From Chloroflexota bacterium (GTDB lineage Bacteria > Chloroflexota > Dehalococcoidia > Lucifugimonadales > UBA2962), in the NCBI GenBank assembly GCA_002699485.1, contig PAAV01000055.1, forward strand, positions 47,278 through 111,277: DNA of 64,000 nt, given 5' to 3'. Below the pieces are notes generated by a model. The model saw only the letters and a list, made by a program, of their open reading frames with translations. It searched no databases and was not told where the DNA came from. Shown one piece after another: positions 46,611 through 64,000 of the stretch; positions within the stretch are counted from its first letter, which is position 1, and each line of letters starts with the position of its first letter. The translations under genes were made by a program, and so were the position numbers.

Positions 46611-49600
46611 ATGGCACTATTTCTTAAAGGCGAATATAACGAATATAGTATAAAAGACTATTCGACTTCTGGTTCTGCAGGAAGTGCTGGCTCTGCTGGT
46701 TCTGCTGGAAGTGCGGGGAGTGCTGGATCTTCAGGATCGTCTGGTTCTGCTGGTTCGTCTGGCTCTGCAGGATCGTCTGGAACTACTGGAACTTCTGGAA
46801 CTTCTGGTTCTGCAGGAAGTGCTGGCTCTGCAGGGACTTCTGGATCGTCTGGCTCTGCAGGAAGTTCTGGTTCTGCTGGTTCGTCTGGCTCTGCAGGATC
46901 TGCTGGAAGTACTGGATCGTCTGGTTCTGCTGGAACTTCTGGAACTGCAGGGACTTCTGGATCATCTGGTTCTGCTGGAAGTGCTGGTTCTGCAGGAAGT
47001 GCTGGAACTTCTGGAAGCGCAGGAAGTGCTGGCTCTGCTGGTTCTGCTGGTTCTGCAGGAAGTTCTGGTTCTGCGGGGACTTCTGGATCGTCTGGTTCTG
47101 CAGGAAGCTCAGGGTCTGCTGGTTCTTCTGGTTCTGCTGGCTCTGCAGGATCCGCAGGATCTGCTGGTTCATCTGGATTGACATATGCTTCATCTGGATC
47201 TTCAGGTAGTGCTGGAAGTGCTGGCTCTGCAGGATCATCTGGTCGTGATGGCGGAACTAAAATTCATACTCAAGGGGTAGCCAATTCCGTTTGGTTAATA
47301 GATCATTCTTTAAATACTAGACCTGTAAATATAGAAGTTGTCGATAGCAATTATAATGTAATTTATCCAGAATCAACTCAGTATATAGATTCAAATAATA
47401 TAAAAATAGTATTTACTTCTTCTATAGCGGGTTGGGCGGCAATTACTTTTGGAGAAGGTTCTTCTGGAACATCTGGTTCTGCTGGAACTTCTGGATCTTC
47501 TGCATCCGCTGGCTCTGCAGGAAGTTCAGGATCCGCTGGTTCTGCTGGATCTGCAGGAAGCGCAGGAAGTGCTGGTTCTGCTGGAAGTGCTGGCTCTGCT
47601 GGCTCTGCTGGTTCATCTGGAAGTGCTGGCTCTGCTGGTTCTGCAGGAAGCGCAGGGAGTGCTGGTTCTGCAGGAAGTGCTGGAACTTCTGGAACTGCTG
47701 GTTCATCTGGAGAAGATGGAAATTTTGGTGGTCAAGCCTTTGAATATGATTTTGATAATACAACATTTACAGGCGCCGCAAGTGATCCAGGTTCTGGTAA
47801 ACTTGTAGTAGGAATTGATACTGGATCTGCACCTACAGATTTTTCTACAGTTGATAGAATTTCTATGAGTGAAGCTGATGTAAATGGTACATCAACTGAA
47901 AGTTTTCTAGATCAAGTTGATGGTGCAACATCCGCAATTAAAGGACATGTAAGAATATCGAAAAAATTTGATACAAGCACATATGTAATGTTCACTATCT
48001 CGGATGTTACTAATGATTCTGGTTTTCAAGAAATAGAAGTTTCAAAAATTGGAGGACAAACTGCATTATTTGATGATGATGAAGATATAATTGTTACATT
48101 TGCAAGAACTGGTGATGCAGGAACTTCTGGAACTACTGGATCGTCTGGTTCTGCAGGAAGTGCTGGTTCTTCTGGCTCTGCTGGCTCTGCTGGCTCTGCT
48201 GGTTCTGCTGGTTCATCTGGAAGTGCTGGCTCTGCAGGATCATCTGGACAAGATGGTGGTTCGTATATTCATACTCAATCTGTAGCAAATAGTGTTTGGC
48301 ATATTCCTTATAATCTTAATACACGACCTGTAAATATTGAAATTGTTGATGAGTATTATAATGTAATTTTTCCCGAATCTACTCAATTTATAGATTCAAA
48401 TAATGTAAAAATAATTTTTGATTCTTCAGTAAAGGGTTGGGCGGCAGTTACTTTTGGAGAAGGTTCTTCTGGAACCTCTGGTTCATCTGGATTAACTTAT
48501 GCTTCATCTGGATCGTCTGGAACTTCTGGAAGTTCTGGTTCTGCTGGATCATCTGGAACTTCTGCTACTGCTGGTTCTGCAGGATCATCTGGTTCGTCTG
48601 GAAGTTCAGGAAGCGCAGGTAGTTCTGGTTCTGCTGGTTCTTCAGGAAGTGCTGGTTCGTCTGGAAGCGCAGGATCTGCAGGAAGCGCAGGATCTGCAGG
48701 AAGTGCTGGTTCATCTGGAAGTGCAGGAACTTCAGGTACTGCAGGAACTTCTGGAACTGCTGGATCTTCAGGTAGTGCTGGCTCTGCTGGCTCTGCTGGT
48801 TCATCTGGAAGTGCTGGAACTTCTGGAACTGCTGGATCTTCGGGTAGTGCTGGCTCTGCTGGCTCTGCTGGATCATCTGGAAGTGCAGGAACTTCTGGAA
48901 CCTCTGGTTCTGCAGGAAGTGCTGGCTCTGCTGGTTCTGCTGGAAGTGCAGGGAGTTCTGGCTCTGCTGGCTCTGCAGGAAGCGCAGGTTCTTCTGGATC
49001 TGCAGGATCATCTGGTCGAGATGGCGGTACTTATATTCATACTCAATCTGTAGCCGCACTTGTCTGGGTAATACCTTATAATTTAGGAACTAGACCAATA
49101 AACATTCAGATTGTTGATTCTAATTATAATGTTATTACACCTGAATCTATTCAATTTATAGATTCTAATACTGCAAAAGTAGTATTTACTTCTGCTCAAG
49201 CTGGATGGGCGGCATTAACTTTTGGAGAAGGATCTTCAGGAACTTCTGGTTCTTCTGGTACTGCTGGATCATCTGGATCGTCTGGTTCTGCAGGAACTGC
49301 TGGATCATCTGGACAAGATGGAAACTTTGGTGGCGCATCTTTTCAATTTGTTTTTGAAAATACAACATTTACAGGATCAGGAAGTGATCCAGGTACTGGA
49401 AGAATTGAAGTTGGTATTGATACTGGATCTGCACCTACTGATTGGTCTACAGTTAATAGACTTTCTGTAAGTGAAACAGATACAAATGGTTCATCAGTTG
49501 AAAGTTTTCTAGATCAAGTTGATACATCATCTTCTGCAATTAAAGGACATATAAAATTATCAAAAACGTTTGATCCATCTGAATATGTAATGTTCACAAT

Positions 49601-51600: not shown

Positions 51601-52134
51601 ATGGGATCACCGTGTCCAAGTAATTTAACAGGCATAACAGTATCAGCAGGAACAACTATTAAAGATACTGAAGAATTTGGAGTTGTACGTACTTCTATTA
51701 ATAATGAATTTACTCGTAGGAGTAAAGCGACTTCTTCATGGATGGCTTTTGCTGATCCAATTGATGATGCTGTTTGGAATGAAATGAGAAATGATGTTTA
51801 TTCTAAATTAGGAGGAGTTTCTCCTCCTGGTCCCCCCACACCAGATGCTACTAAACCCACCAATACTGTTTCTACTGCAAATGTAGTTTTATCAACGGCT
51901 GGTGATACTAGAGGCATGAATGAAATGATTGCTCAAATTGATTTATGGAAAGTTGCTTGTATTTGTGATTGTGATTATTGTACATGTGATTGTGATTATT
52001 GTACATGTGATTGTAATTATTGTACTTGTAATTGTGATTATTGTACATGTGATTGTAATTATTGTACTTGTAATTGTGATTATTGTACTTGTAATTGTAA
52101 CTATTGTACATGTGCTTGTGCATGGAGTAAATGA
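51601..52134 (+). CDS. Cys-heptad repeat protein, possible modification substrate
   Basis: This 177-residue protein begins one base after the fibre 2 stop. Residues 1-119 are a non-repetitive region: an early Cys (C5), a segment DPIDDAVWNEMRNDVYSKLG (52-71), a Pro-rich linker SPPGPPTPDATKP (74-86), and a helix MNEMIAQIDLWKVA. From C120 to the end there are 24 Cys in 58 residues. These comprise seven heptads of the form C-[DN]-C-[DN]-Y-C-T (residues 122-170) and a degenerate CACAWSK. Possible readings are a RiPP-like precursor with a long leader, a metallothionein-like metal binder, or a disulfide-ladder tip of the fibre. Three radical SAM enzymes and two oxygenases follow in the same operon. 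I do not recognise a named family. Confidence 0.85.
   Translation: MGSPCPSNLTGITVSAGTTIKDTEEFGVVRTSINNEFTRRSKATSSWMAFADPIDDAVWNEMRNDVYSKLGGVSPPGPPTPDATKPTNTVSTANVVLSTAGDTRGMNEMIAQIDLWKVACICDCDYCTCDCDYCTCDCNYCTCNCDYCTCDCNYCTCNCDYCTCNCNYCTCACAWSK
51964..52110 (+). repeat. Seven tandem 21-base repeats encoding CxCxYCT
   Basis: The units are exactly 21 bases (TGT RAT TGT RAY TAT TGT ACW). They differ mainly at G/A positions that switch Asp and Asn and at the last Thr codon. Units 3-4 and 5-6 encode the same 14 residues, pointing to a 42-base duplication. A decayed eighth unit (52111-52131) encodes CACAWSK. Confidence 0.95.
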
Positions 52135-52904
52135 TGAATAAACCTGTTTTAATTAAGGTTAGTGAAGATGTTATTGTACTAGAAGACGAATTTAAAAAGA
52201 TTAATGTAGAAGAATTAAATGTTTTTTTATATGAACACTTAAAATCGAATAAAATATGTACTATTCATGAATTATATCCAGAGACTAATTTAGTAATATA
52301 TGTCTATTGTATTCGTCCTCAAAATATACTTTATCAAGATTTTGAAGAAGCAGTTAAGAATTATTTTGTAAAATATGGAATAAGTTATGAATATCAATCT
52401 ACCATTCCTGTTGCATTATATTCAATTTTAAAAGAAAATGGACATTTAACTAAACATGAACTTTATAAAATGATTGAACATTCAGACGAATATGTAGAGT
52501 ATGGTATCGATCCTCTTGTAAAATCATTATTGGAATTTCCTGGAATTGAAATTATAGAATCGTGTCATGGTCATTATGATAAAAATAGTCCTGTAGCAAA
52601 AAATGATTGGGTGTGTTATGCTTATGTTGTATTTGGAGCATCAGATTTTGAGAATTTAAATAAATTATCTTCAGAATTACAAAAACAAATTACATCTATG
52701 TTTCGACATTTTCAACTTAATGATGTAGAAGATTCTTTTGTGAAAAAATGGTTTGATAAAAATGGATTATTAACAAATTTTGGTTATCATAAAGATAAAG
52801 GAACTATTTTTGAAATTGCTTTTAGATATGTACTAAGAGAACAGACTATGATATTTCAAATGATAGATTATTTAGGACAAAAATTGCATTATGAAAAATT
52901 ATAA
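52131..52904 (+). CDS. SCxGH-motif protein 1 (unknown)
   Basis: This 257-residue protein starts in an ATGATGA overlap with the stop of the Cys-repeat gene (either ATG could be used). It was not recognised. It shares with the gene at 58685 an N-terminal [HK]-K-I-N-V-[ED]-E-L-N segment (residues 22-30) and a central block YGIDPLVKSLLEFPGIEIIESCHGHYD (124-150 in part), with Cys145 and His146/148. The block has a S-C-x-G-H-x-D core. Such a Cys-His-rich strand end could bind metal or be catalytic, but no fold can be named. Its position immediately behind the Cys-repeat gene suggests a role in processing or carrying it. Confidence 0.7.
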   Translation: MMNKPVLIKVSEDVIVLEDEFKKINVEELNVFLYEHLKSNKICTIHELYPETNLVIYVYCIRPQNILYQDFEEAVKNYFVKYGISYEYQSTIPVALYSILKENGHLTKHELYKMIEHSDEYVEYGIDPLVKSLLEFPGIEIIESCHGHYDKNSPVAKNDWVCYAYVVFGASDFENLNKLSSELQKQITSMFRHFQLNDVEDSFVKKWFDKNGLLTNFGYHKDKGTIFEIAFRYVLREQTMIFQMIDYLGQKLHYEKL

Positions 52905-53697
52905 AGAATTTCCAGAATATGTTAGAAAGTTGCCATGGAAATTTGATGTTGAATGTTTACAAGAAGACCTTCAACCTATTAAACCATTAATGGTGATATG
53001 GGATTATGGTGCTAGTCATGAAGTTGGTGCAGGAAAAGGTTTTAGTTTTGTACATTCTGAAGATTGTCCTGATGATGAAAAAACAACTCAAGATGTTTAC
53101 AGTCATCCAAGCCTTCATTATAAAAATGTAGATAAATCATATGCCTTTGAGCTTAAACATAATTTTAAAAATCGTGAGCATATGAATGGAACATTAATAA
53201 GTTCTAAATTAAGAAAAACTAGAAGTGATTATCATCAAAATACAGGAGTATTTAATGAAGAGTATAAACATACAGAATTTTATAATGTTTATAAAACACT
53301 TTCTAAATATTATATAATAGATAAATTTCGTATTATTATGTTACCACCGTTTTCGACTGTGGCTTGGCATAATGATGCTGATGAGAGTTTACATGTTCCT
53401 ATAGAAACAAATACATCTTGTCGTTTTGTTATTGATGATTTGTCTTATTATCTACCTGCAGATGGTAGTACATATCAATCAGATAATTGTTTTCATCATA
53501 CTATTTTTAATGCTGGGACTACAAATAGATATAATTTATTAGTGGGCGTTACTGGTTATAAAGAAGGATCTTATAGATTATGTCAACATTATATGCAATC
53601 AGGATTTGATTCACAGTTAAATGATATTACATATATTGCTAAACCCATTAAAGAAGTAACACACGAAGAATTATGGAAAGCGGAGGATTATAAATGA
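52891..53697 (+). CDS. Aspartyl/asparaginyl hydroxylase-like 2OG-Fe(II) oxygenase
   Basis: This 268-residue protein has the pattern of the Asp/Asn beta-hydroxylase family (PF05118-type). The iron ligands appear as H160-x-D162 in FSTVAWHNDADESLHVPIET and H202 or H203 in DNCFHHTIFNAG. R213 in TTNRYNLLVG would bind 2-oxoglutarate. The G-S-T-Y-x-x-D-N strand before the last His is typical. Enzymes of this family hydroxylate Asp or Asn side chains in Cys-rich repeats such as EGF domains. That matches the Asp/Asn-rich Cys repeats encoded 1 kb upstream, but the link is inference. The start is the ATG 14 bases inside the previous gene. Confidence 0.8.
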   Translation: MKNYKEFPEYVRKLPWKFDVECLQEDLQPIKPLMVIWDYGASHEVGAGKGFSFVHSEDCPDDEKTTQDVYSHPSLHYKNVDKSYAFELKHNFKNREHMNGTLISSKLRKTRSDYHQNTGVFNEEYKHTEFYNVYKTLSKYYIIDKFRIIMLPPFSTVAWHNDADESLHVPIETNTSCRFVIDDLSYYLPADGSTYQSDNCFHHTIFNAGTTNRYNLLVGVTGYKEGSYRLCQHYMQSGFDSQLNDITYIAKPIKEVTHEELWKAEDYK

Positions 53698-54395
53698 TAG
53701 AACAGATTGAAGATACTGTTTTATGGAAAAATTTGAAAGAAAATAGCTTATCTTCTGACCGATTATTATTTATTTTAGTAAGCACAAAAGTTATGATTTG
53801 TGTGTCTCCATTATTGTGGGGTAATAATGATGCAGTTTTAGGAATTCCTTCAGACAAATATGGATGGATGTCTTTAAATGAGGATCTAAGTATGTCTTTG
53901 CATCCTGACGATCCTGTAACTTCTGCTCATTTGCAAAAATATAATATTGATGTAGATGAATATATGAGTATTGTAGAAGAATTAGAGAAGGTTCAATATC
54001 TTGAAGGATCTGGATCAACAGAATCATTTGAAGAAAATACTGATATAAGATTCGAAAATAAGAACCCTGAGCATGATTTGACTAATGTCAGTTTCGCCAC
54101 TGGAGATCCAAAAATACGAACCCCTGGTGGAGATTCAATTAGAATAATTCGTTCAAAGCAATTATATGAAAAATTATTAATTTATTATTCATCATTATCT
54201 ACTACTTATGGAGCATCTACGTTTCAGTCTGCCATAGAATTGTGGATACAAGAAATTCCGACTACTATCATGGATATGCCAGGATTTCGTGGTAGTCAGT
54301 CATGGTGTTTACGAGGAGTATTATATATAAGTTTAAATTTATATCTGTTAAAGGCGGAAAATTATAGAATAAAAAATTTGGGACCAGAAATTTAA
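53694..54395 (+). CDS. Cassette protein A, copy 1 (unknown)
   Basis: This 233-residue protein starts in an ATGA overlap with the oxygenase. It is a paralogue of the gene at 62516. Both begin with I-E-[DN]-x-x-L-W-K and LLF-[IL]-LV-x-TK (here residues 5-32), and both carry WIQEIPT (184-190) and a closing LY-I-x-x-NLYLLK (210-220). This copy has about 85 extra acidic residues in the middle (Glu/Asp/Ser/Pro, about 60-145). No catalytic motif or membrane segment is evident and the family is not recognised. The partner gene B follows without a gap, and the same A-B order recurs downstream. Confidence 0.7.
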   Translation: MIEQIEDTVLWKNLKENSLSSDRLLFILVSTKVMICVSPLLWGNNDAVLGIPSDKYGWMSLNEDLSMSLHPDDPVTSAHLQKYNIDVDEYMSIVEELEKVQYLEGSGSTESFEENTDIRFENKNPEHDLTNVSFATGDPKIRTPGGDSIRIIRSKQLYEKLLIYYSSLSTTYGASTFQSAIELWIQEIPTTIMDMPGFRGSQSWCLRGVLYISLNLYLLKAENYRIKNLGPEI

Positions 54396-55301
54396 ATGGA
54401 TACGATAACAAGAAACAATATTTTTTTAACCGCTTGGGAAGAAACACTTGAACAAACTTTTTTTCAAGATGATTGTGGATCTCCATGTCATTTTATTGGT
54501 ACACTTATAAAGAGATTATATCCTGATAATACTATATTTAATTCTCTTGATAATTGTGTATTTGATGAAATTTCGATTCCTCTCCTCACCAGTTGTAGTA
54601 ATAATACATTATGGGAAAATATCCTTTTTAAATATTGGGGAACTTATCTTTATGATCCTGCAGATCAAGATACATATTTTACTAACGATATTAAATGTGG
54701 TGATTTATTTTTTTTAATTCATGAGAAATTGCCAAGTGATTTTATACCAAACGTAACACCACATGTTTATGTAGGAGATGATCATTTTTTGAATTGGAAT
54801 ATGGGAGAAATTGAACCAATAGAAAATATTAAAAAATCTGTTATGGGAGCAAAATTAAAATGGGTTTTACGATATAATTTTGATCGAACAGATACAAAAA
54901 CTCCTTCTGGAGCAGACGACATAAAAATGTGGGAAGATTTTTGGGGAGATGACTATGTTAGTTTAAATAATTTATCATATGATAAAAATCATAGAATTTT
55001 TCCAAGAGAATTGGTAGCAAGTATAAATATAAATGGTACGGTTACTACTGATATTTCACCTGTTCCAGTATTATCTGATTTTGTTAAAATATTTTTATTA
55101 AAAGATTGTTTAGTTTGTTTTAAAGAATTTGATTCAGTAGAAAATGAATATATTAAAAATGGAGAATATTTACCTTCTTATCCATCAACTTCTGGAGAAG
55201 GTTTTTTACGATATAATTGGACATTAGAATTTGATGCATCTAAATATACAGATATAGAAAATTATTTAAAAGATAACAATTTACAATATAAGGTGATATG
55301 A
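54396..55301 (+). CDS. Cassette protein B, copy 1 (unknown)
   Basis: This 301-residue protein directly follows A and overlaps radical SAM gene 1. It is a clear paralogue of the gene at 62970. Shared blocks are NNIFL-x-x-W (7-14), YPDNTIF (42-48), GD-[LI]-F (102-105), RYNF-x-RTD, WEDFW (about 185-189), RELVA, TDISP and a closing RYNWTL-x-F-x-ASKY (about 273-286). The middle pattern GDLFFL ... HVYVGDDHFLNW (102-134) is reminiscent of NlpC/P60-like cysteine peptidase cores, with a possible Cys at 27 or 31. In the paralogue the aligned His and Cys are not conserved, so a protease role is doubtful. A non-catalytic relative is possible. Confidence 0.7.
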   Translation: MDTITRNNIFLTAWEETLEQTFFQDDCGSPCHFIGTLIKRLYPDNTIFNSLDNCVFDEISIPLLTSCSNNTLWENILFKYWGTYLYDPADQDTYFTNDIKCGDLFFLIHEKLPSDFIPNVTPHVYVGDDHFLNWNMGEIEPIENIKKSVMGAKLKWVLRYNFDRTDTKTPSGADDIKMWEDFWGDDYVSLNNLSYDKNHRIFPRELVASININGTVTTDISPVPVLSDFVKIFLLKDCLVCFKEFDSVENEYIKNGEYLPSYPSTSGEGFLRYNWTLEFDASKYTDIENYLKDNNLQYKVI

Positions 55302-56647
55302 ATACTTCTATAAGAAAAACTGAAAGCTGGGTTCCTCCCACACCACCTCATGCACTTAAAAAAAGACCGAGAAATTTTACACATCAAGCTAGTAATCGAA
55401 GATTACCAGAATTTCATTTTGATGTAAATGTAACAAGTAAATGTAATTTAGCTTGTACATATTGTAGTGAAGGCGAATCATGTGGTTTATCTACTATATT
55501 TCAAGCACCAACAAATTTATTGCCTGATGAATTAGTAAAAAAAGTTTTAGAATTAGATAAAACAAAATATTCTGCAGTTAATCTTTATTTTTGGGGTGGG
55601 GAAGCATTTACTAATTGGCCATTTTGTAAAGCTGTTATGAATAAATTAGCAAATGTAAAATATATAAATTTTATGTTTTATACAAATGGTGTATATTTAA
55701 AAAAATATAAAAAACAATTAGCTACAATAGATAAAAAACTTGGCACAAGAGGATCTTCATCACCATGGCAAAATAATGGACAGCGAAGATTGCATATACA
55801 AGTATCATTTGATGGTGAACCTATAAACACTTTAGAAAGACATACAAAGACCGGTCCAGATGAAAAAATGTCGGCTCACGTATTTGATTCTTATTTGGAT
55901 CTTAAAGAATCTGGATTTAGTATTGCTTTAAAACAAACAATTTCTGCAAGAAATTTTAAATATCTATTTGATGTTTGGAAATGGCATTATGATAGAGGAA
56001 TAATGTATGGTCCAACTCCTGATACACATGGGTCAGATGAAAAACGTCCTGATGGAGGAGCTTGGCCAGAAGGAGAATTTGGGGAAAATTTAAAACAATT
56101 AAAATTAAATATGATAAAAATATCGAAATATTGTATAGACAGAGATATTATTCCGTCAAATACATTTAGATGGTATGGAAAAAGTCGTGCAGATTGCGGA
56201 TCTGGTATGAATTATCTTGCTATTGATTTAGATGGGAAATTATATCCTTGTCATGGTTGTATGTATAGACAAAGAGATGATCATTTAGCTGGAACATCTA
56301 AAGATAATTTACAAGATATAGCCACAACAACAACAGAAAAATATATGGATTTTTTACATACTTTTAAAACAGATCAAACATTAGATTGTAATAATTGTCA
56401 AGTTGATTTTTGTTTGAAGTGTCCAGCGGGTTCATTTGATAGATCAGAGACTACAGCCGATACTTATGGAGAAGCCTGGCAAGATCATCCTTCTAACTGG
56501 CAGTTATGTAAAGTATGGAAAACCATTAGTCCCATTGTAGATGCAACAAACATTTCGTTTGATAAAAAATATCCTAAGAATAGAAGAGAGACCCCCAATT
56601 TAAATATGCCTTTGTGTAAACCAGAATTGGCATCTCTTTATGCATAA
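55298..56647 (+). CDS. Radical SAM/SPASM-like enzyme 1
   Basis: The product has 449 residues. The radical SAM cluster motif is C49-x3-C53-x2-C56 (TSKCNLACTYCSEG), followed by the SAM-contacting GGEAF (100-104). A SPASM-type auxiliary region lies at the C-terminus, with C300 in CGSGMNYLAID, LDGKLYPCHGC (C318, C321), then C364, C367, C372, C375 and C404, enough to hold two further [4Fe-4S] clusters. Members of this family make thioether or carbon crosslinks, epimerise residues or activate enzymes, mostly on peptide substrates. A basic N-terminal extension (about 1-37) precedes the barrel. The gene overlaps B by ATGA and is followed by a second radical SAM gene. Confidence 0.92.
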   Translation: MNTSIRKTESWVPPTPPHALKKRPRNFTHQASNRRLPEFHFDVNVTSKCNLACTYCSEGESCGLSTIFQAPTNLLPDELVKKVLELDKTKYSAVNLYFWGGEAFTNWPFCKAVMNKLANVKYINFMFYTNGVYLKKYKKQLATIDKKLGTRGSSSPWQNNGQRRLHIQVSFDGEPINTLERHTKTGPDEKMSAHVFDSYLDLKESGFSIALKQTISARNFKYLFDVWKWHYDRGIMYGPTPDTHGSDEKRPDGGAWPEGEFGENLKQLKLNMIKISKYCIDRDIIPSNTFRWYGKSRADCGSGMNYLAIDLDGKLYPCHGCMYRQRDDHLAGTSKDNLQDIATTTTEKYMDFLHTFKTDQTLDCNNCQVDFCLKCPAGSFDRSETTADTYGEAWQDHPSNWQLCKVWKTISPIVDATNISFDKKYPKNRRETPNLNMPLCKPELASLYA

Positions 56648-56656
56648 GGAAGATAT

Positions 56657-57859
56657 ATGCAATTTAATCTAGAATTATCTGTTACAGAGAAGTGCAATTT
56701 AGCATGTCCTTATTGTTATGTGGCTAATCAAGATACATTTCTTACTCCAGAAATATTTGATAATAGTTGGGATGAATTTAAAACATTAGTTCGTAGATCA
56801 CATTCACATAATGAAGATTATCATGTGGGTTTTTTTGGAGGAGAGCCATTATTAAATATGGATCTAATAAAATATGTGGTTGAAAATTATTTTGGTCCAG
56901 ATCCACATTGTCAACATATGACAATTATTTCTAATTTATCATTGCTTACTCAAGAAATAGTGGATTATGTTAAAGAATATGGCATGGGAATGAGTTGGAG
57001 TTTTGATGGAATATCTTCTAATTTGTCAAGACCATTAATATCATCTATGAAAGAAAATGATGGTTTTGAAAGTGTATTAGATATGTACAATTCAAAAAGA
57101 CATTTAATAAAAAAAGTATTAGGAGACCATAGATGGTGTAAAGTAATGATATTTCCTGGAAATGTTGATACCATGACAGAAAATTTAGAATTTTTAGTTG
57201 ATTTGGGAATGAATTGTCCAGATTTTATGCCAGTTAGAGATGATATTTGGTCAGTAGATGATTTACATAATTTTAGAAAAGAATGTCATAGATTAGCAGA
57301 TAGAACTATACAATATTTTGAAGATGGACAAATTGTGGCTGTTGGGATGTTTTATCTTGCTATACGTGATACTTTAATAGGATTGACAAAATCTAAACGT
57401 CCATGGGGATGTTTTGCTGGAACGCATGGAGCTATAATGTCTGTTGAAGGAAAGTTTTTTCCTTGTGCAAGATTTGCTTCAAAAAAATTATTACCAATGG
57501 TTGGAGAAGAATATAATTTTGATTATTGGAATAAGACATTAAATCCTCAAAATTATGATAAATGTAAAAGTTGTAGATTATATAAAATTTGTAATGCAGG
57601 TTGTTCGTACTCTCAAATTAGAAATAATAATGAACCTGTCGATTCTGTGTGTGAAATAAATCATATATATTATGATGAAACTTTAAGAATTAATAGAGCA
57701 TGTAAAGATATGCCTGCTTATAAAGAATATGTTCAAAACATATTTACTGGACAATTTAGAGCCTTTAAAGCAGAAACAGAATTTTCTGATATATACAGTC
57801 TTATTAAAAAACATAAGGTAGGAATGGAGGCTATTGAAAAGGAGAGACTTGTTGCATGA
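56657..57859 (+). CDS. Radical SAM/SPASM enzyme 2
   Basis: The product has 400 residues. The cluster motif C13-x3-C17-x2-C20 (TEKCNLACPYCYV) lies close to the N-terminus, and GGEP stands at 61-64. The C-terminal SPASM domain shows C252 (GCFAGTHGAIMSVEGKFFPC to C270), then CKSC (C303, C306), C312, C316 and C332, the canonical 7-Cys pattern. Unlike enzyme 1 it has no N-terminal extension, so it may depend on a separate substrate-recognition protein such as its small neighbours. An AAGGAAG Shine-Dalgarno lies before the ATG. The following gene overlaps the stop by ATGA. Confidence 0.94.
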   Translation: MQFNLELSVTEKCNLACPYCYVANQDTFLTPEIFDNSWDEFKTLVRRSHSHNEDYHVGFFGGEPLLNMDLIKYVVENYFGPDPHCQHMTIISNLSLLTQEIVDYVKEYGMGMSWSFDGISSNLSRPLISSMKENDGFESVLDMYNSKRHLIKKVLGDHRWCKVMIFPGNVDTMTENLEFLVDLGMNCPDFMPVRDDIWSVDDLHNFRKECHRLADRTIQYFEDGQIVAVGMFYLAIRDTLIGLTKSKRPWGCFAGTHGAIMSVEGKFFPCARFASKKLLPMVGEEYNFDYWNKTLNPQNYDKCKSCRLYKICNAGCSYSQIRNNNEPVDSVCEINHIYYDETLRINRACKDMPAYKEYVQNIFTGQFRAFKAETEFSDIYSLIKKHKVGMEAIEKERLVA

Positions 57860-58383
57860 CAGAACCAGTAATATCGCTTATAGATCAACTTGAAGAAACA
57901 AGAACACCAATCCCAAGAGAACAAGAAGGATCTCAAGGAATAGTTAGTAGATTATATTTTCCAGAAGATAGGGGCATAGTTACAGAAAATGTTCCCGATG
58001 GTTTTGCAAAAGATTTACCGAATAAAGATCGAGTTACTAAAACTTTTAAACTTTTCTTTTTTTTTGAAAATATAAAAGATTTTGAATTATTTAAAACAAA
58101 TATCATAATGAGGAACATTTCAGTTGAGTGTCATTCTCGACAAGTAACAAAAGAAAATAAATTTTTTGATCGTGATGGTTATCTTTTAATACTTACTTTA
58201 AACGATGAGGATAGACAAAAAATTATTGATGAAATGCCCAATAATGAAAATTCTGGATATATAACATTTACAAAAACAACAATCAGCAAAGAAATACATG
58301 AAATGTCTAATGATATTGGTTTGACTATAATGCATAAAGGAAATTTAACAGAAATGGAATATAGACGATTAGGAAAAATATGA
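57856..58383 (+). CDS. Unknown 175-residue protein of the modification operon
   Basis: The gene is coupled by ATGA overlap to radical SAM gene 2 and to the next small gene. The product has an acidic, Pro-containing N-terminus (IPREQEGSQG, residues 18-27) and then alternating strands and helices: TKTFKLFFFFENIKDFELFK (about 61-80), HSRQVTKENKFFDRDGYLLI, and a C-terminal helix. This ferredoxin-like alternation could suit a small adaptor or peptide-binding domain, but no RRE or other family signature can be claimed by eye. It has one Cys (about residue 92). Confidence 0.65.
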   Translation: MTEPVISLIDQLEETRTPIPREQEGSQGIVSRLYFPEDRGIVTENVPDGFAKDLPNKDRVTKTFKLFFFFENIKDFELFKTNIIMRNISVECHSRQVTKENKFFDRDGYLLILTLNDEDRQKIIDEMPNNENSGYITFTKTTISKEIHEMSNDIGLTIMHKGNLTEMEYRRLGKI

Positions 58384-58676
58384 AAGATTTTGAAGCAAAA
58401 TCATCTGAAAAAGATTGGAAGCCCCCAAAGTTTGAAGATGTAAAAATAATATCCCAACAAATACAGGACCAAGAAACTCCATCTAAGAAGCAAGCAAGAG
58501 ATAAAAATTTATTACGAAAGTCTTTTGAAGAATCAAAAAAAATGCATGGAAAGAGATTATATCCTTATAAATTAGATTTTGTGGAATTTTTTCAAGATGT
58601 TAAGGAAATTTTAAAATCAAAACCGCCCTCCTCACCCGCAGAATTAGCAAAACGTGGTCGTAAGTATACTCATTAA
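58380..58676 (+). CDS. Basic 98-residue protein (unknown)
   Basis: The gene overlaps the preceding stop by ATGA. The product is Lys-rich and probably mostly disordered or helical (KKQARDKNLLRKSFEESKKM, about residues 36-55), with YPYKLDFVEFFQDVKEILKSK near the end and a basic tail ending KRGRKYTH. It has no Cys. It could bind nucleic acid or act as a small partner, but I have no family evidence. Confidence 0.6.
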   Translation: MKDFEAKSSEKDWKPPKFEDVKIISQQIQDQETPSKKQARDKNLLRKSFEESKKMHGKRLYPYKLDFVEFFQDVKEILKSKPPSSPAELAKRGRKYTH

Positions 58677-58684
58677 AATAGTAA

Positions 58685-59461
58685 ATGATAAAAATATTAT
58701 TGAAAAATAATACAATTGTAGCATTTGATCCTGATCATAAAATTAATGTAGATGAATTAAATAAATATCTTATTTCTCTAATAGATAAAATAGACGGACA
58801 TTCTCAATTAGTTCAGAGAGCAATTAGACAAGAAGAATATTTATTAATTAATCAGTATGCTAATGTAAGTGTAAATTTTTTAGTAGATATTTTTAACAAA
58901 TTTCTTGAACAATTTAAAATTGAATATGATTGGGATGATAAATTTTCTGATGAAAGTTTCTCAGACTTTTTACCCAATAGAGATATTTCTACAGGAGAAA
59001 TGGCTGGAGGTAAAACTCCCGATACCAAACAAATAGAAAAAGGTATTGAACCATTAGTCGAAATTCTCAATGAATTTGAAGGAATTCAAACTTTTACTTC
59101 ATGTGAAGGACACGATGATAGAAGAAGAGGAGAGTCTTTGGCGTATGTGAATTGGAGAGCATCTTCATTAGATGGATTAAATTATTCTACGTTTATTTTA
59201 AAAAATGCTATTAAAACTGTTTGGGAAAAAATTGATAATAAAGATTTTAATACGTATCAAACAACTAATAAAATTTCATTAAAATTTAATACAAGTCTTT
59301 GGAGAAATTCAGAATATGGTTCTAGGGATGGTGTGTGTGTGAGAGGGGCCAAATATGGAGAAAATTTTTATAAATTTGATTTTCCTTATGAATATAGACT
59401 TCAAAAATTAGTATTTAATATAATAAAAGACATTGCATTTGAAATGAAAAAAAATAAATGA
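58685..59461 (+). CDS. SCxGH-motif protein 2 (unknown)
   Basis: This 258-residue paralogue of the gene at 52131 shares HKINVDELNKYL (residues 18-29) and KGIEPLVEILNEFEGIQTFTSCEGHDD (119-145 in part), with Cys140 and His143. It carries an extra Gly-rich stretch (ISTGEMAGGKTPD, 101-113) before the motif. Its C-terminal domain ends with a YEYRLQKLVFNIIKDIAFEM helix, comparable with YVLREQTMIFQMIDYLGQ in copy 1. It precedes the IPNS-like oxygenase, just as copy 1 precedes the Asp/Asn hydroxylase-like enzyme, so the SCxGH-oxygenase order is repeated. Confidence 0.7.
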   Translation: MIKILLKNNTIVAFDPDHKINVDELNKYLISLIDKIDGHSQLVQRAIRQEEYLLINQYANVSVNFLVDIFNKFLEQFKIEYDWDDKFSDESFSDFLPNRDISTGEMAGGKTPDTKQIEKGIEPLVEILNEFEGIQTFTSCEGHDDRRRGESLAYVNWRASSLDGLNYSTFILKNAIKTVWEKIDNKDFNTYQTTNKISLKFNTSLWRNSEYGSRDGVCVRGAKYGENFYKFDFPYEYRLQKLVFNIIKDIAFEMKKNK

Positions 59462-60210
59462 AACCTTTATTAATAGAATTCAAAGAATGGAATGATGATC
59501 TTGTGATTGAAAGTTTTGAAACAACTGGTTTTTTAATTGTAAATAATCCTTTTCAAACAGTAAAAAGATCCCTCAATAAATTAAGAGGCTCCTTAAAATA
59601 TACTAATCTAAAAACTTTTTCTACATTTCAACAGGGGCGACCGAGTAAACGAGGTGCGCCTGGAGAAGCAAATGAACGTGTTATCTTAGAATTCGAATCT
59701 CAAGAAATGCAACAATGTGCTGATGATGTTCGTGGTAAATTTTTAGATGTTAGTATCAAGATTTTTCATACAATAGAAAAATTTATGTCAATGGCTCATA
59801 ATACTATAGCAGAAAAACATTATCCAAACAGAGATGTAGATTTGACTTATGTGAAATATTATAAAGATCAAGAAGGAGATGTTCGATTGGGAAGTCATTG
59901 TGATTTTGGTACATTAACATTAGTTCATGTATGTGATCCTGTAGAAGAATATCAACTTAATAAAAATAATGAATGGTATACTATAAATTATCCTAGCGAT
60001 GATTTCATAATAATTAATGTTGGAGATTATATGCAATTGTGGACAGATAATAGATTAAAATCTACTCGACACAGGGTAGCTAATCTTACAAAAAAAGAAC
60101 GAAATTGTTTAATTACATTTATGAATCCAATTCCACCAACAGAAGTGGGGGGTTATAATACAAAACAATGGAGTGATTTTAAAGCTAAAACAGCATATGC
60201 AACAGGATAA
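59458..60210 (+). CDS. Isopenicillin N synthase-like 2OG-Fe(II) oxygenase
   Basis: This 250-residue oxygenase belongs to the IPNS/DAOCS-type superfamily (PF03171-type). Iron ligands are H147 and D149 in LGSHCDFGTLTLVHV, and H205 in KSTRHRVANL. The strand DDFIIINVGDYMQLWTDN (181-198) is characteristic. The usual R-x-S cosubstrate motif appears as R215-N-C217, with Ser replaced by Cys. This may change 2-oxoglutarate binding, or the enzyme may not use it, as IPNS itself does not. The N-terminal jelly-roll half is short (250 aa against about 320), so substrate contacts differ from classical members. The gene overlaps the SCxGH gene by ATGA. Confidence 0.87.
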   Translation: MKPLLIEFKEWNDDLVIESFETTGFLIVNNPFQTVKRSLNKLRGSLKYTNLKTFSTFQQGRPSKRGAPGEANERVILEFESQEMQQCADDVRGKFLDVSIKIFHTIEKFMSMAHNTIAEKHYPNRDVDLTYVKYYKDQEGDVRLGSHCDFGTLTLVHVCDPVEEYQLNKNNEWYTINYPSDDFIIINVGDYMQLWTDNRLKSTRHRVANLTKKERNCLITFMNPIPPTEVGGYNTKQWSDFKAKTAYATG

Positions 60211-60214
60211 ATAT

Positions 60215-61162
60215 ATGAATTCTCTTCATGAAACTCATTCTACTTATTCAATTCGTGGTAAAGAATCTAATCCCATATCAAATCCTGTAAAAAGTAGTTT
60301 AAGAATTTTATATTTAACTAATAGATGCAATTTAGCTTGTACTTATTGTTATGAGGGGCTAGGAGATACATTTAAATATGGAGGAATGGTTCCTGCTATA
60401 CCGTCTTTAAAACAACTTATTAAACAAGTTGATGATATTATAGCAGAAGAACCAGAAGAAGAGAAGCAAACTCTTTTTTTATTGTTTGGAGGAGAACCAT
60501 TAATGCAATGGAAAAATATGAAAGATGTCATGTTACACGCAATGCTTCAAAAAAACAATATACATTTTAATGCTATAACAAATGGAGTACTTCTTACAAA
60601 GCCTAAGTTTCTTAAAGATTTTATTTCTTTTTTTAAAGAACATCATGATATAATTCAGAAATTTTCTTTAGATATTAGTTTTGATGGAGTGGGAAATGGA
60701 GAAAGAGTATATCGTAATGGTAAAAAATCTGCACCAACGGTTCTAAAAGCTCTGGCTATGTTATCTGCTATTGATGAAGAGATAATGAAATTTCGATGGA
60801 GAATTCGTTATACAATACAGGAAACTAATATAGATCGTTGGAAAGAAGATATACTTCATTTAAATAAAACCTTTAATCCATATAGAATAATAACATCTAT
60901 TGATTCGGCAATGGAAGATAAAAATTTAAATGCACATGAAAAATTAAAAAGAGACATATCTTCTTTACGTTCTCTTTGGAAAACAAAAGCCCTAAATACA
61001 CCTGTATGCGGGTTTTTTTGTGATACATGTGATGAATGTGCTGGAACCCATGACTATAAATATTATTATACTGATAAAGGATTGACTAAAAAACAACTGC
61101 ATAGTGAAAACATGGGACCATTTGAAGATTCTGGACAATGGGATTCTAGTAGTTTAAAATAA
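60215..61162 (+). CDS. Radical SAM enzyme 3
   Basis: I place the start at the ATG at 60215, five bases after the oxygenase stop, and not at the ATG at 60173 inside that gene. The product has 315 residues with C38-x3-C42-x2-C45 (TNRCNLACTYCYEG) and GGEP at 92-95. The C-terminus is short and carries C265, C269, C272 and C275 (VCGFFCDTCDECAG), enough for a single auxiliary cluster. It lacks the full SPASM spread of enzymes 1 and 2. The middle contains SLDISFDGVGNG (151-162), the usual barrel strand. A truncated-SPASM (Twitch-like) enzyme acting on a peptide is likely. Confidence 0.9.
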   Translation: MNSLHETHSTYSIRGKESNPISNPVKSSLRILYLTNRCNLACTYCYEGLGDTFKYGGMVPAIPSLKQLIKQVDDIIAEEPEEEKQTLFLLFGGEPLMQWKNMKDVMLHAMLQKNNIHFNAITNGVLLTKPKFLKDFISFFKEHHDIIQKFSLDISFDGVGNGERVYRNGKKSAPTVLKALAMLSAIDEEIMKFRWRIRYTIQETNIDRWKEDILHLNKTFNPYRIITSIDSAMEDKNLNAHEKLKRDISSLRSLWKTKALNTPVCGFFCDTCDECAGTHDYKYYYTDKGLTKKQLHSENMGPFEDSGQWDSSSLK

Positions 61163-61165
61163 ATA
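61158..61165 (+). promoter_or_regulatory. Late-promoter-like motif before the gene at 61183
   Basis: AATAAATA spans the stop of radical SAM gene 3. It is 17 bases ahead of the next ATG, with a GAGAG Shine-Dalgarno between. In such AT-rich DNA a chance match is quite possible. Confidence 0.3.
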
Positions 61166-61182
61166 TTATAGAGAGATTAATT

Positions 61183-61872
61183 ATGAAACAAGAAACAGAA
61201 CAAGCACTCAAAGAATGTATTAATACATTAAGTAAATTATTGGATAATGATAATCCTCAAGTTCAACGTGAAGGAACAATAGTATTAAAAACTTTTGATA
61301 CTATGTTAATGGTTTCAAATGAATGGAGTAGGGTATATGCAGGAGTATTAGACCGAGCCCGAATTGAAGAAGAACGAAGTTTAGCTGGAGGGTCGGACCC
61401 TACACTTTTCCCCCCGCTCCAGCCTTTCAATCAAGGACAATTGTGTAATTGTGGTTTATCTAGTAAAATAGATAGTGTAGAAGGTTCGCCAATGTTTGGT
61501 AAAAAAATCTGTGATATGACTTGTAAAGAAAGTGAACAAAAAGCTCGAGGAGATACTGCAGAGTATATTAAATTTTTATCTGAAGAAAGCGATGAAAATC
61601 AAACAGAAAGTGATTTGAATGAAGCAGTAGAAGACATTTCTAATTTTGTTGATGATCAATTAGGAATTGTTAAACCCAATCAACAAGCGGCTCGTAGTGG
61701 TGAACTTGAACATGGACATGGTAAAGAGAAATTTAAAGATAAACAATATGAACCCAAATCTAAAGTAAAAATTACACCTGTTGAAAATTTACAAGAATTA
61801 ATAAAAGAAAGATCCGAAGAAAGAGGAGAGGCTCTTGCAAACGAAAGAACAAAGATAAAAGAATCAAAATAG
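61183..61872 (+). CDS. Unknown 229-residue protein with CxC motif
   Basis: The product begins with helices (TEQALKECINTLSKLLDNDN; EGTIVLKTFDTMLMVSNEW). A Pro-rich linker follows (DPTLFPPLQPFNQ, 72-84), then GQLCNCG with a second pair KKICDMTC about 25 residues later. The C-terminal 110 residues are highly charged and probably disordered or helical (SEESDENQTESDLNEAVED, ERSEERGEALANERTK). The two Cys pairs could ligate Zn or an Fe-S cluster, but the spacing fits no family I recognise. It starts a sub-block of three small genes before cassette copy 2. Confidence 0.7.
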   Translation: MKQETEQALKECINTLSKLLDNDNPQVQREGTIVLKTFDTMLMVSNEWSRVYAGVLDRARIEEERSLAGGSDPTLFPPLQPFNQGQLCNCGLSSKIDSVEGSPMFGKKICDMTCKESEQKARGDTAEYIKFLSEESDENQTESDLNEAVEDISNFVDDQLGIVKPNQQAARSGELEHGHGKEKFKDKQYEPKSKVKITPVENLQELIKERSEERGEALANERTKIKESK

Positions 61873-61881
61873 GAGAATTTT

Positions 61882-62085
61882 TTGTCAGGAATAAGCACAT
61901 TAAGCGATGAAGCAATATATTTCATATTAAGTAAAAAATTTGAAAAAAAAGAATATCAAAACTGTTTGGATCTATTAAATCAATTTGAATCAAGATTGAA
62001 AGGTGATGGAGAATTTGCTAAAAGAAAAGAACTTTATACAATGGCAGTAGAGAAGAAATACCCATTTGATAGAGAGGATGTTTAA
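61882..62085 (+). CDS. Small helical protein (67 aa, TTG start)
   Basis: The start is a TTG with an AGGAG six bases upstream. No ATG exists near the beginning of the frame. The product looks like two or three helices of TPR-like character (AIYFILSKKFEKKEYQNCLDLLNQFESRLK). The stop is directly followed by the ATG of the next gene. The family is not recognised. Confidence 0.6.
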   Translation: MSGISTLSDEAIYFILSKKFEKKEYQNCLDLLNQFESRLKGDGEFAKRKELYTMAVEKKYPFDREDV

Positions 62086-62526
62086 ATGGCAGTTGATCCT
62101 AAAAAAAATCTTGAAGATATAGGATTTATGATTTATGAATTGAAGAATATTTATGCTCTGACAGATGATCCAAAAATTGATATAACATTACCTGATCCTT
62201 TTACGACTATTGAAGAAATAGCTTCCGATTCTTCTACTGCAACTGAACCCGAATATAAAAGACTTAAAGATTATGATGGAAATATTAAAACCTGGTTAGA
62301 TAAAATAATAGACCTTACTCAAACACACAGCCCCGTCCCTTATAAAGAGATTGATGATGCAAATAATGAATTTTTTGAAAATGCTTCTCAAAATGAAAAA
62401 GATGAATTAGATAGTATATTTTCTGGAAATTTAGATTTCAATAATCCAACGAATGAAGAATTACAATCAATTGCATTTAGAGTATATGAAGCATATCAAC
62501 TTTTAAAAGAATTATATGATACCTAA
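62086..62526 (+). CDS. Unknown 146-residue acidic protein
   Basis: The gene starts immediately after the preceding stop and overlaps the following gene by 11 bases. The product is acidic and mostly helical, with a N-terminal helix (NLEDIGFMIYELKNIYAL), a Pro/Thr segment (ITLPDPFTTIEEIASDSS, 33-50), and a C-terminal helix NEELQSIAFRVYEAYQLLKELYD. It contains no Cys. It may be a structural or adaptor protein of the operon. Confidence 0.65.
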   Translation: MAVDPKKNLEDIGFMIYELKNIYALTDDPKIDITLPDPFTTIEEIASDSSTATEPEYKRLKDYDGNIKTWLDKIIDLTQTHSPVPYKEIDDANNEFFENASQNEKDELDSIFSGNLDFNNPTNEELQSIAFRVYEAYQLLKELYDT

Positions 62527-62983
62527 TCGTTATGAACTCTCATCCATAGAAAATATTCCATTGTGGAAAAAATTTGAAAATAATACTATAGATAAAGAAA
62601 AACTATTATTTCTTCTTGTGTTTACAAAAATGTTTTCTCTTTCTTGTCCTGGAAGATTTGGTATTCTAGATCCAGAAGTATTAAAGCGAACAATGAAAAA
62701 GAAAAAAAGTGAAAAAAAATCTCTAGAAAAAAAAACTGCATATAAAAAATTCTTACTTTATTGTAAAGAATTAGAGTTTGACTATCCTTTTATTGAAGAT
62801 TGTTTTTCAAAATGGATTCAAGAAATTCCTACTGCTGGTTTTAAAACTGGTACACCTCTTGAGTTTGTTGGTGGATGGACAGCGAAATCGATTTATAAAA
62901 AATGCTGGCATTCTGCTTTACAAGAACGTTTGTATATTGGTATGAATTTATATTTATTGAAAAAAAAGAATGTTACAGACTGA
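62516..62983 (+). CDS. Cassette protein A, copy 2 (unknown)
   Basis: This 155-residue paralogue of the gene at 53694 shares IENIPLWKKFENN (11-23), LLFLLVFTKM (30-39), KWIQEIPT (99-106) and LYIGMNLYLLKKK (139-151). It lacks the long acidic insert of copy 1 and instead has a Lys-rich helix (KRTMKKKKSEKKSLEKK, 57-73). The start ATG lies 11 bases before the previous stop. A1 is longer than A2 mainly because of the insert, so the shared core is about 140 residues. Confidence 0.7.
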   Translation: MIPNRYELSSIENIPLWKKFENNTIDKEKLLFLLVFTKMFSLSCPGRFGILDPEVLKRTMKKKKSEKKSLEKKTAYKKFLLYCKELEFDYPFIEDCFSKWIQEIPTAGFKTGTPLEFVGGWTAKSIYKKCWHSALQERLYIGMNLYLLKKKNVTD

Positions 62984-63941
62984 AAAAAATAATATTTTTC
63001 TATCATCATGGTATAATGCTGTATATGATTTTATGATGGTGGATTCTGTAAGAGATGATGGCGTACCTTTAGATTCTATTCCCCTCTTTCATTTTTTTGC
63101 TAATATTATGTTGAAAATATATCCTGATAATACTATATTTAAAAAATTTCTTAAAGATGAAAATTTATATGAAATTAAAAATAAACAACATTCATCGCAT
63201 TATTTACAAAATGGTAATCAAACATTATGGGATACTAAGTTAGCATCATATTTTGGAACTTATTGGACAGAAATACAAGATGAGACAAAATATTTTCAAG
63301 AAGATATTAAAAAAGGTGATATATTTTTAATATACATAAAAAATTCTCCACCACAAATACAACAAAGATATATTCCTGCAATTTATATAGGAAATAATTA
63401 TATGCTTGGACATTGTGGGTATGAGTTTGAACATATTAATGTCATCGAAGAGTCTACATTGACGGAAAAAAATTCATCATTAGCAGGTGTTTTACGATAT
63501 AATTTTAATCGAACAGATTCACACACTCCATCTGATACAAAAGATATTGAAATATGGGAAGATTTTTGGGATGAAGAATATATTGCTTTGAATACTTTTT
63601 CATATAATAAAATTCGTAGCTCCCTTGCAAAAAGAGAATTAGTAGCTGATATAGATATAGTTGACAATAATGTTAACATTAATACTGATATTTCACCCAT
63701 TCCGTATCTTCAAGATTTTTCTGAAATCTGGTTATTAAATGATTGTTTATGTTGTTTTAAAGAAGATATGATAAAAGAAAATGAATATGCTAGAAATTCA
63801 GAACTTTTACCATCTTTTGAAATGTGTGGTGGAATTTGGTCTGCTCGTTATAATTGGACTTTGAGATTTAATGCATCAAAATATAATGTTATTAAAAATT
63901 ATTTAGAATTAAATAAGTTATTGTATAATAAAATAGATTGA
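62970..63941 (+). CDS. Cassette protein B, copy 2 (unknown)
   Basis: This 323-residue paralogue of the gene at 54396 shares NNIFLSSW (7-14), YPDNTIF (51-57), LW-x5-YFGTYW, GDIFLIY (116-122), LRYNFNRTD, WEDFW, RELVADI, TDISPIP, and a closing RYNWTLRFNASKY. Overall similarity is strong in the second half. Where copy 1 has HVYVGDDHFLNW, this copy has AIYIGNNYMLGHC, so the possible catalytic His is not conserved. The gene overlaps A2 by 14 bases. Confidence 0.72.
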   Translation: MLQTEKNNIFLSSWYNAVYDFMMVDSVRDDGVPLDSIPLFHFFANIMLKIYPDNTIFKKFLKDENLYEIKNKQHSSHYLQNGNQTLWDTKLASYFGTYWTEIQDETKYFQEDIKKGDIFLIYIKNSPPQIQQRYIPAIYIGNNYMLGHCGYEFEHINVIEESTLTEKNSSLAGVLRYNFNRTDSHTPSDTKDIEIWEDFWDEEYIALNTFSYNKIRSSLAKRELVADIDIVDNNVNINTDISPIPYLQDFSEIWLLNDCLCCFKEDMIKENEYARNSELLPSFEMCGGIWSARYNWTLRFNASKYNVIKNYLELNKLLYNKID

Positions 63942-63944
63942 TAT

Positions 63945-64000
63945 ATGAATGTATGTGATTTTGTTTTTGATAAGATAAAACAATATGGTGATGAAATAGC
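63945..64000 (+). CDS. N-terminus of a gene cut by the window edge
   Basis: An ATG three bases after the previous stop opens a frame to the window end: MNVCDFVFDKIKQYGDEIA. Its N-[VL]-x-x-F-x-x-x-x-x-x-x-Y-G-D-x-I-A pattern resembles the first helix of AMP-forming acyl/aminoacyl adenylating enzymes. Only 18 residues are visible, so this is a hint and not an assignment. Confidence 0.4.
   Translation, partial: MNVCDFVFDKIKQYGDEI

Follow-up and report, generated by a model that had tools for sequence, protein, structure and literature searches.

The subject of this study is a phage gene cluster in a 64,000-nucleotide stretch (the window) of contig PAAV01000055.1 from a Chloroflexota bacterium assembly (GCA_002699485.1). 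The cluster encodes a cysteine-rich repeat protein and three radical S-adenosylmethionine (SAM) enzymes, here called alpha, beta and gamma. A Cys-heptad, fibre-like protein and three orthologous radical SAM enzymes form a phage module that is widespread. The best reading is that the enzymes modify the repeat protein, and we place at about two in three the probability that they cross-link cysteines of the Cys-heptad protein, a predicted virion fibre tip. The window occupies the middle of a contig of 161 kb that is binned in a 1.9-Mb genome. Of ten upstream proteins scanned, eight have matches in T4-type families (baseplate, tail, head-tail adaptor, terminase or sheath).

The C-terminal end of the window protein, VACICDCDYCTCDCDYCTCDCNYCTCNCDYCTCDCNYCTCNCDYCTCNCNYCTCACAWSK, consists of exactly seven C-[DN]-C-[DN]-Y-C-T units, as a sequence-only reading of this DNA had claimed for ORF (open reading frame) 51601-52134. 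A protein search with the repeat protein gave 797 candidates, of which 370 reached E 0.001 or better. The family is described here from the relatives inspected among 120 listed matches. Heptads are common to all of them, and most have an N-terminal domain with a conserved E-x2-RR. Many have the C-terminus S-D-x-R-L-K, which is the start of the S74 intramolecular chaperone domain, or the whole S74 domain. In relative L161 residue 165 is the last of the heptads and residue 167 the first of PF13884. PF13884 scored above its cut-off of 22 in L161 (28.3 bits) and L231 (31.5 bits). Because these relatives have PF13884 and the window protein does not, the window protein is kin of the S74-chaperoned fibres but not a member. 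The sequence-only reading had offered a virion part or a secreted peptide as the product; the S74 domain directly after the heptads in relatives supports the virion part, and nothing points to a secreted peptide.

The heptad consensus, C-[T/P]-C-[N/D]-C-N-[Y/H/F], was taken from 1154 heptads in 175 distinct proteins, picked by C at positions 1, 3 and 5. Asn or Asp occupies position 4 in 89% and position 6 in 95% of the heptads. The spacer to the next Cys after a heptad was 0 residues in 799 and 1 residue in 322. Up to four tandem copies of the Cys gene and up to 28 heptads per protein were found. AlphaFold modelled the N-terminal helices and the S74 domain of the L161 relative with confidence and the heptads without a fold. 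Most heptads scored near or below 50 on the predicted local distance difference test (pLDDT), therefore no cross-link geometry can be read from the model. Foldseek matched the C-terminus of this relative to viral models named intramolecular chaperone auto-processing domain. Neither a fold comparison of the model of a relative with the PDB nor a PDB sequence search with A7 gave a match at E 0.001 or better. Four tandem paralogous Cys-heptad genes were seen in L149 (8698-11262) and three in L152 (8851-10908). In L155, L156, L157 and L158 an ORF of ~93 amino acids directly 3' of the Cys gene resembles the S74 remainder by eye and is possibly a split chaperone.

Genomes were searched with a heptad DNA pattern that is blind to the enzymes, which identified 44 viral records. 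Genes above the PF04055 (Radical_SAM) cut-off of 29.5 bits were present in 40/44 records, and the 3,864,303 bases of the set gave 322 matches with E 0.001 or better. The four records without PF04055 (G015, G016, G018 and G037) stop 0-1.6 kb downstream of the Cys gene, and the side they are missing is the side where the window carries its radical SAM genes. The 44 records are not independent; together with three genome contigs they merge at 90% identity into 31 systems (L041 is counted via L188, which is on the same contig). As a control, PF04055 was found in 0/50 T4-like gp6 records comprising 1,323,656 bases, where ~110 matches would be expected at the rate of the heptad records. These controls were 50 of the 80 viral records with a gp6 relative, the 30 left out all being under 13.1 kb. 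The co-occurrence test that the sequence-only reading had proposed was strongly positive, and the repeat protein is the best candidate for the substrate, as that reading had supposed.

A second control set of 29 records consisted of 19 of 80 terminase-search records (at least 20 kb, three of them tested before) and 10 retested controls. PF04055 was found in 6/29. Four of the six are heptad-bearing sisters of the window (G112 and G122-G124, 35-77 kb), in which alpha, beta and gamma are the only radical SAM genes and lie beside the Cys gene. The other two have a single radical SAM gene of another kind. These genes, in G130 and G132, were not counted as exceptions; they match neither alpha, beta or gamma nor the general home-made models, and are HemN-like by eye.

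The pieces examined from 42 distinct systems were typed with profiles. All three enzymes were present in 31 systems, alpha plus gamma in 5, alpha plus beta in 1, beta alone in 1, gamma alone in 1 and none in 3. Ten of the systems were found via alpha and one is the window, therefore the remaining 31 are the fair test; all three enzymes were present in 21/31 and at least one in 28/31. The gamma-only system is the Campylobacter group, and in phage CP220 of that group alpha and beta lie elsewhere in the genome. The Cys gene and the radical SAM genes share one strand in L001, in CP220 and in 25 fetched pieces of 15.5-20 kb. In 8 of the 12 records longer than 100 kb, ~20-kb pieces contained 52 radical SAM ORFs, where ~8 would be expected, versus 72 Pfam matches in the whole records; the comparison is approximate, since the ORFs were detected with a home-made profile and the whole-record matches with Pfam. 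This count leaves out G020, whose Cys gene is at a contig end (7 matches overall, of which the piece accounts for 3 ORFs), and three Campylobacter phages with scattered genes. Three gene orders were seen: one group of loci has gamma-alpha-beta-Cys, a second group has alpha-beta-gamma-Cys, and the window and its sisters have Cys-gamma-alpha-beta.

A scan with the window genes found the Cys gene in 118 loci, gamma in 135, alpha in 140 and beta in 135, counting any radical SAM kin at E 0.001. Every other window gene had relatives in at most 7 loci, with the gp6 controls left out. Among genome contigs the heptad pattern was found in three, two of one Thermoplasmata bin and one of an uncultured bacterium; gamma adjoins the heptad gene in 3/3, alpha in 2 and beta in 1. 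The Thermoplasmata contigs, L243 and L245 of an archaeal metagenome-assembled genome, have a heptad gene with alpha and gamma, and may represent an archaeal virus or a binning error. Although a heptad gene is present in CP220, neither the window protein nor P0085 had a tblastn match in the phage collection; repeats of this kind are masked by BLAST, and the misses therefore carry no weight.

An alpha profile search approached the association from the enzyme side and covered 77 viral loci (the best 80 of 207 kept). A heptad ORF was in the stretch examined in 50/77. Three more are Campylobacter phages, whose heptad gene is elsewhere in the genome. Right downstream in 14/77 is a second type of Cys-rich protein with a unit of approximately C-x-C-[NHD]-x-x, and 9/14 of these proteins continue into S-D-x-R-L-K (PF13884 was checked in L231). 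Other Cys-rich types are in 3/77 (L223, L227 and L228). Enzyme loci lacking any Cys-rich partner, which the sequence-only reading had named as counterevidence, number 7/77. Of these seven, L166, L194, L226, L229 and L230 are cut by a contig end, and the Cys gene of L189 has an internal deletion relative to its sibling L195; only L199 has no such explanation. The L189 deletion (12648-13084) removes the heptads and keeps the neighbours, and is either an assembly error or a real loss. Cys density is above chance, as 50/57 alpha loci (L166-L222) have at least 12 Cys per 40 residues of an ORF; the maximum for any ORF was 9 in 80 T4-like control loci, which are shorter (6 kb at most).

The sequence-only reading had described a coupled operon with three radical SAM genes, two of them SPASM-like. 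The run of genes and the three radical SAM members were confirmed. The genes starting at 55298, 56657 and 60209 are on the same strand, overlap or nearly abut their neighbours and score above the PF04055 cut-off, and the core cysteines C-x3-C-x2-C are invariant in alignments A3 (alpha), A4 (gamma) and A5 (beta). Gamma is above the TIGR04085 cut-off and its Pfam SPASM score of 21.1 is just below the cut-off of 21.5. Alpha is without a Pfam SPASM match, though G-x4-C, C-x2-C-x5-C-x3-C and the last C are invariant in A3 and resemble the SPASM motif. No SPASM match is listed for beta. In NCBIfam, peptide maturase models were the top matches of all three enzymes, with PapB (NF047865) the best (alpha 131.8, beta 68.8 and gamma 54.3 bits versus a cut-off of 340). 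Alpha aligns to positions 5-320 of the 330 in this model, and its second-best match was QhpD (TIGR03906, 90.4 bits versus a cut-off of 453). The nearest solved structure by sequence was 5wgg for all three, presumably the thioether-forming SCIFF maturase CteB. Alpha, beta and gamma are three orthologous clades conserved in very different phages. A tree of 97 radical SAM proteins from 19 loci has three clades of 15 rows with one member per locus and the window in each (support 100/100 for alpha, 100/98 for beta and 100/98 for gamma). The first alignments, A1 and A2, were dropped when the tree showed that they mixed alpha and gamma.

Cultured phages also carry the module. When 50,697 phage records were searched by tblastn with two alpha proteins, orthologues (37-41% identity across 92-93% of the query) came from 15 records, which represent 11 phages, all of Campylobacter. 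The remaining matches (15 and 23 records) were gut-metagenome fragments and one gut phage at 22-35% identity. DNA of the Cys-gene region matches the same 11 Campylobacter phages over 84-100% of the query, and the heptad gene itself was read in CP220, CPt10, CP21 and IBB_35; CP220 and IBB_35 are listed under Firehammervirus. The CP220 genome encodes the heptad protein gp140 together with alpha, beta and gamma in scattered positions, with 1 radical SAM gene within 10 kb of the Cys gene and 11 overall. Campylobacter phages have in addition a second kind of Cys-rich repeat protein, with C-x2-C runs, ~7 kb from alpha (L216 17842-18213; L217 17834-18352 and 18417-19271). The L216 protein is phrog_15341.

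The cross-linking could proceed as follows. Before the fibre is assembled, or while it is, alpha, beta and gamma would attach to the helical N-terminal domain and would reach the disordered heptads. Cys sulfur would be joined to carbon of nearby residues, the best candidates being Asn/Asp at positions 4 and 6. Links from Cys to Asn/Asp are the most economical guess, given the frequency of Asn/Asp at these positions. PapB makes Cys-Asp/Glu thioethers; according to the accessible part of PMC9413430, PapB does so in repeated motifs and tolerates 0-6 residues between the linked positions. The S74 domain, where present, would template the trimer and then cut itself off, and a hardened heptad needle would be left as the fibre end. 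Genes confined to single lineages, namely the oxygenases and those of glycosyltransferase-like and fatty-acid type, would add optional decoration.

Whether beta is present varies with the repeat type, which is suggestive only. A whole-record profile search of 35 records found beta (>200 bits) in 15/18 records with a three-Cys unit and 0/14 with a two-Cys unit; the other 3 records have other unit types. The two-Cys records without beta include records of 278, 113 and 105 kb, and the three-Cys records without beta are 27, 70 and 79 kb. Fisher's test gave p 1.5e-6, a value that ignores kinship, and several of the 14 two-Cys records are near-copies. A tentative extension is that a three-enzyme radical assembly line makes the heptad end a covalently cross-linked needle with one enzyme per cysteine position, the third enzyme being lost where the third Cys was lost. 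We are inclined to doubt this form of the idea, and it was held back from the best explanation because the label change needs only one or two events and because two loci, L223 and L227, do not fit.

Several observations weigh against the cross-linking reading or its extension. Two changes of the two-Cys label are required on the alpha tree, though one is conceivable, and the covariation therefore rests on 1-2 evolutionary events. L223 combines a one-Cys CHSN unit with all three enzymes, and L227 has one heptad and no beta. All three enzymes are far below the NCBIfam cut-offs of known peptide maturases, including the SCIFF model, and the reaction could therefore differ. The window protein has no PF13884 match in Pfam. 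In L199, which is a contig of 8.6 kb, alpha and gamma are present but the 5.5 kb after them contain no Cys gene. The gp6 controls, being 11-126 kb fragments that surround another gene, test the lineage background and not whole genomes. In the accessible part of Timms 2010, 11 CP220 gel bands are identified and the heptad protein CPT_0180 is not among them; CPT_0180 is gp140 by gene order and the 21-bp repeat. One group of ~12 loci has sugar-type genes conserved beside the trio, labelled by eye as F8 (UDP-glucose-dehydrogenase-like) and F9 (glycosyltransferase-like), and further radical SAM genes outside the three clades; the sugar-type genes are not common to the window. The heptad cysteines may also bind metal.

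In a rival view the heptads are a metal-binding or disulfide-bonded needle and the enzymes act elsewhere, for example on surface glycans of the fibre or host. Metal-holding tips occur in some tail fibres and spikes. Three regularly spaced Cys per heptad would suit such a needle, and the ~12 loci with F8, F9 and extra radical SAM genes would suit action on glycans. We nevertheless consider it unlikely. The trio are the sole radical SAM genes, beside the Cys gene, in sisters G112 and G122-G124, and they co-occur with it in CP220 despite the lost gene order. In addition, their NCBIfam relatives are peptide maturases and the presence of beta tracks the repeat type. A small chance is left to the view that the Cys protein is a precursor in the manner of RiPPs (ribosomally synthesized and post-translationally modified peptides), whose heptad block, once modified, is cleaved from the protein and set free as a small bioactive peptide. 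Sactipeptide and ranthipeptide loci typically combine SPASM enzymes with a Cys-rich C-terminal core. However, the partner protein has 177 amino acids in the window and is fibre-like in relatives, which run on into the S74 fibre chaperone, and up to four tandem copies with up to 28 heptads per protein fit a structural part better. No peptidase or exporter was seen among the neighbours inspected (12 families by eye and five proteins by PHROGs/Pfam), most neighbours being unannotated. For these reasons we regard a released peptide as very improbable.

The published explanations of phage radical SAM genes are of a third kind, in which these are auxiliary metabolic or DNA-modification genes unlinked to the Cys protein. 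The papers were available in part and are cited for their accessible text. PMC2853527 reports 11 radical SAM proteins in CP220 and 12 in CPt10, and regards them as highly unusual and probably metabolic; it describes separately a 21-bp repeat inside the CPT_0180 gene, which is not linked there to the radical SAM proteins. PMC5332604 describes 12 radical SAM genes in a T4-like marine environmental genome and views them as Fe-S related, while PMC3322345 suggests that such genes protect phage DNA. Radical SAM cassettes are also reported in the host-recognition region of pelagimyophages (PMC7029224), and five radical SAM proteins in CC_R7 (PMC12398825). Against a metabolic or DNA-modifying role stand the tight co-occurrence and clustering with one fibre-like gene, the orthology of the enzymes across distant phages, and the fact that the window has the Cys gene and the trio in common with other loci and no pathway. 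We think this role improbable. The sequence-only reading knew of no described phage system of this composition. That many radical SAM genes occur in T4-like phages was already reported in PMC2853527, PMC5332604 and PMC7029224; no paper that connects them with a Cys-repeat protein was found in the literature searched, from which subscription journals were mostly absent.

The genes that start at 52131 to 60209, downstream of the Cys gene, are all on the + strand and overlap or nearly abut (Table 1). The start of beta has a GTG alternative at 60173. Two oxygenases are present, as the sequence-only reading had stated, the Asp/Asn-hydroxylase-like one by a marginal match. That reading had also treated them as core members of the system, which was dropped. 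Among the loci scanned, with the gp6 controls left out, relatives of the Asp-hydroxylase-like protein were found only in L027 and L167-L169, and relatives of the IPNS-like (isopenicillin N synthase-like) protein only in L166-L170, the nearest kin of the window. Both oxygenases are accessories of one lineage. Genes of fatty-acid or polyketide type were seen beside the trio in L170 (15467-21164), L166 (6795-10979) and L001 (1947-3694). They include a carrier protein, a chalcone-synthase-like protein or ketosynthase, a phosphopantetheinyl transferase, a short-chain dehydrogenase-like protein and a fatty acid desaturase; the labels are partly from Pfam in L170 and L001, and the remainder and those of L166 are by eye.

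Table 1. Positions of the Cys-heptad gene, the enzyme genes and neighbouring features in the window (aa, amino acids; TRF, Tandem Repeats Finder; 2OG, 2-oxoglutarate).
Feature	Position	Strand	Evidence or remark
Collagen-like (G-S-[AS]) fibre-like protein, 1662 aa	46611..51599	+	Directly upstream of Cys gene
Cys-heptad protein, predicted substrate, 177 aa	51601..52134	+	Helical N-terminal domain with E-x2-RR, then heptads
21-bp tandem array encoding heptads	51957..52120	+	TRF, 7.8 copies
Unknown protein	52131..52904	+	Paralogue of 58685-59461
Asp/Asn beta-hydroxylase-like protein	52891..53697	+	PF05118 24.2 bits, cut-off 22.6 (marginal)
Unknown protein	54396..55301	+	Paralogue of 62970-63941
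Radical SAM gamma, 449 aa, SPASM type	55298..56647	+	PF04055 41.4 bits; TIGR04085 29.6 (cut-off 27)
Radical SAM alpha, 400 aa, full set of SPASM-like cysteines	56657..57859	+	PF04055 46.8 bits
Small protein between alpha and beta	58380..58676	+	Position of ~105-aa family F4 of other loci; positional match only
Unknown protein	58685..59461	+	Paralogue of 52131-52904
IPNS-like 2OG-Fe(II) oxygenase	59458..60210	+	PF03171 60 bits, cut-off 23
Radical SAM beta, 317 aa, C-terminal C-x3-C-x2-C-x2-C	60209..61162	+	PF04055 45.1 bits
Gene starts after Cys gene	52131, 52891, 53694, 54396, 55298, 56657, 57856, 58380, 58685, 59458, 60209	+	

Six hypothetical genes of the window make up three paralogous pairs (52131/58685, 53694/62516 and 54396/62970), which sit among and after the enzyme genes. 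A relative of the 54396-55301 protein adjoins the Cys gene in L170, L171 and L222. No function was obtained from PHROGs or Pfam for the small conserved neighbours F4 and F10. Just upstream of the Cys gene are two very long fibre-like ORFs with collagen-like G-S-[AS] repeats (42089-46285 and 46611-51599), and L170 has a gene similar to the second of them upstream of its Cys gene. Just downstream of the window, L057 (222-1397) has an ORF with unread letters that is AMP-binding acyl ligase-like by eye. A second dense run, of 14 further radical SAM genes, lies on the same contig ~23-46 kb upstream of the window start (L054 1250-19759 and L055 2-4604). Its neighbours are SGNH-like, amidinotransferase-like and glycosyltransferase-like by eye, and 0/14 of its radical SAM genes were typed as alpha, beta or gamma.

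The cross-linking reading offers a concrete, testable answer to the open puzzle of why the genomes of some phages, cultured Campylobacter phages among them, encode up to a dozen or more radical SAM enzymes. If it is true, viruses build their own particles by oxygen-sensitive radical chemistry; cross-linked protein materials and peptide-cross-linking enzymes would have a new source in the module, and phage-host contact would gain a new layer. Should each cysteine have its own enzyme, the system would be a viral counterpart of RiPP maturation that acts on the virus particle itself. CP220 and its kin are cultured and hold the whole set, therefore a test needs no new isolate.

Known systems resemble the module in part. 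CP220 and CPt10, the T4-like marine environmental genome and the pelagimyophages have the same enzyme class in T4-like phages; the difference is that the accessible text of the papers gives 11-12 radical SAM genes or cassettes without a substrate (PMC2853527, PMC5332604, PMC7029224). S74 fibres (PF13884) are like the relatives of the window protein that carry this domain directly after the heptads, and differ from the window protein, which is without it. We know of no described S74 fibre with a Cys-heptad block and a radical SAM escort. The structure nearest to alpha, beta and gamma, presumably CteB, belongs to a SCIFF maturase, but the window enzymes are far below the cut-off of the SCIFF model. 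CteB forms Cys-Thr thioethers in a bacterial small-peptide system with one enzyme. Alpha also resembles QhpD, the quinohemoprotein amine dehydrogenase maturase, without reaching its cut-off. QhpD is a radical SAM/SPASM enzyme that cross-links Cys to Asp/Glu inside a structural protein subunit, with another substrate and in a bacterial pathway. PapB is the best NCBIfam match of all three window enzymes, and alpha spans nearly its whole model. Unlike the PapB system, each phage locus has three distinct radical SAM enzymes and a partner protein of at least 177 amino acids, and the window heptads are without C-x3-[DE], the accessible text giving Cys-X3-Asp/Glu as the PapB substrate motif. The system misses the cut-offs and the substrate motif of PapB, its nearest named kin, yet it would work like radical SAM peptide maturation.

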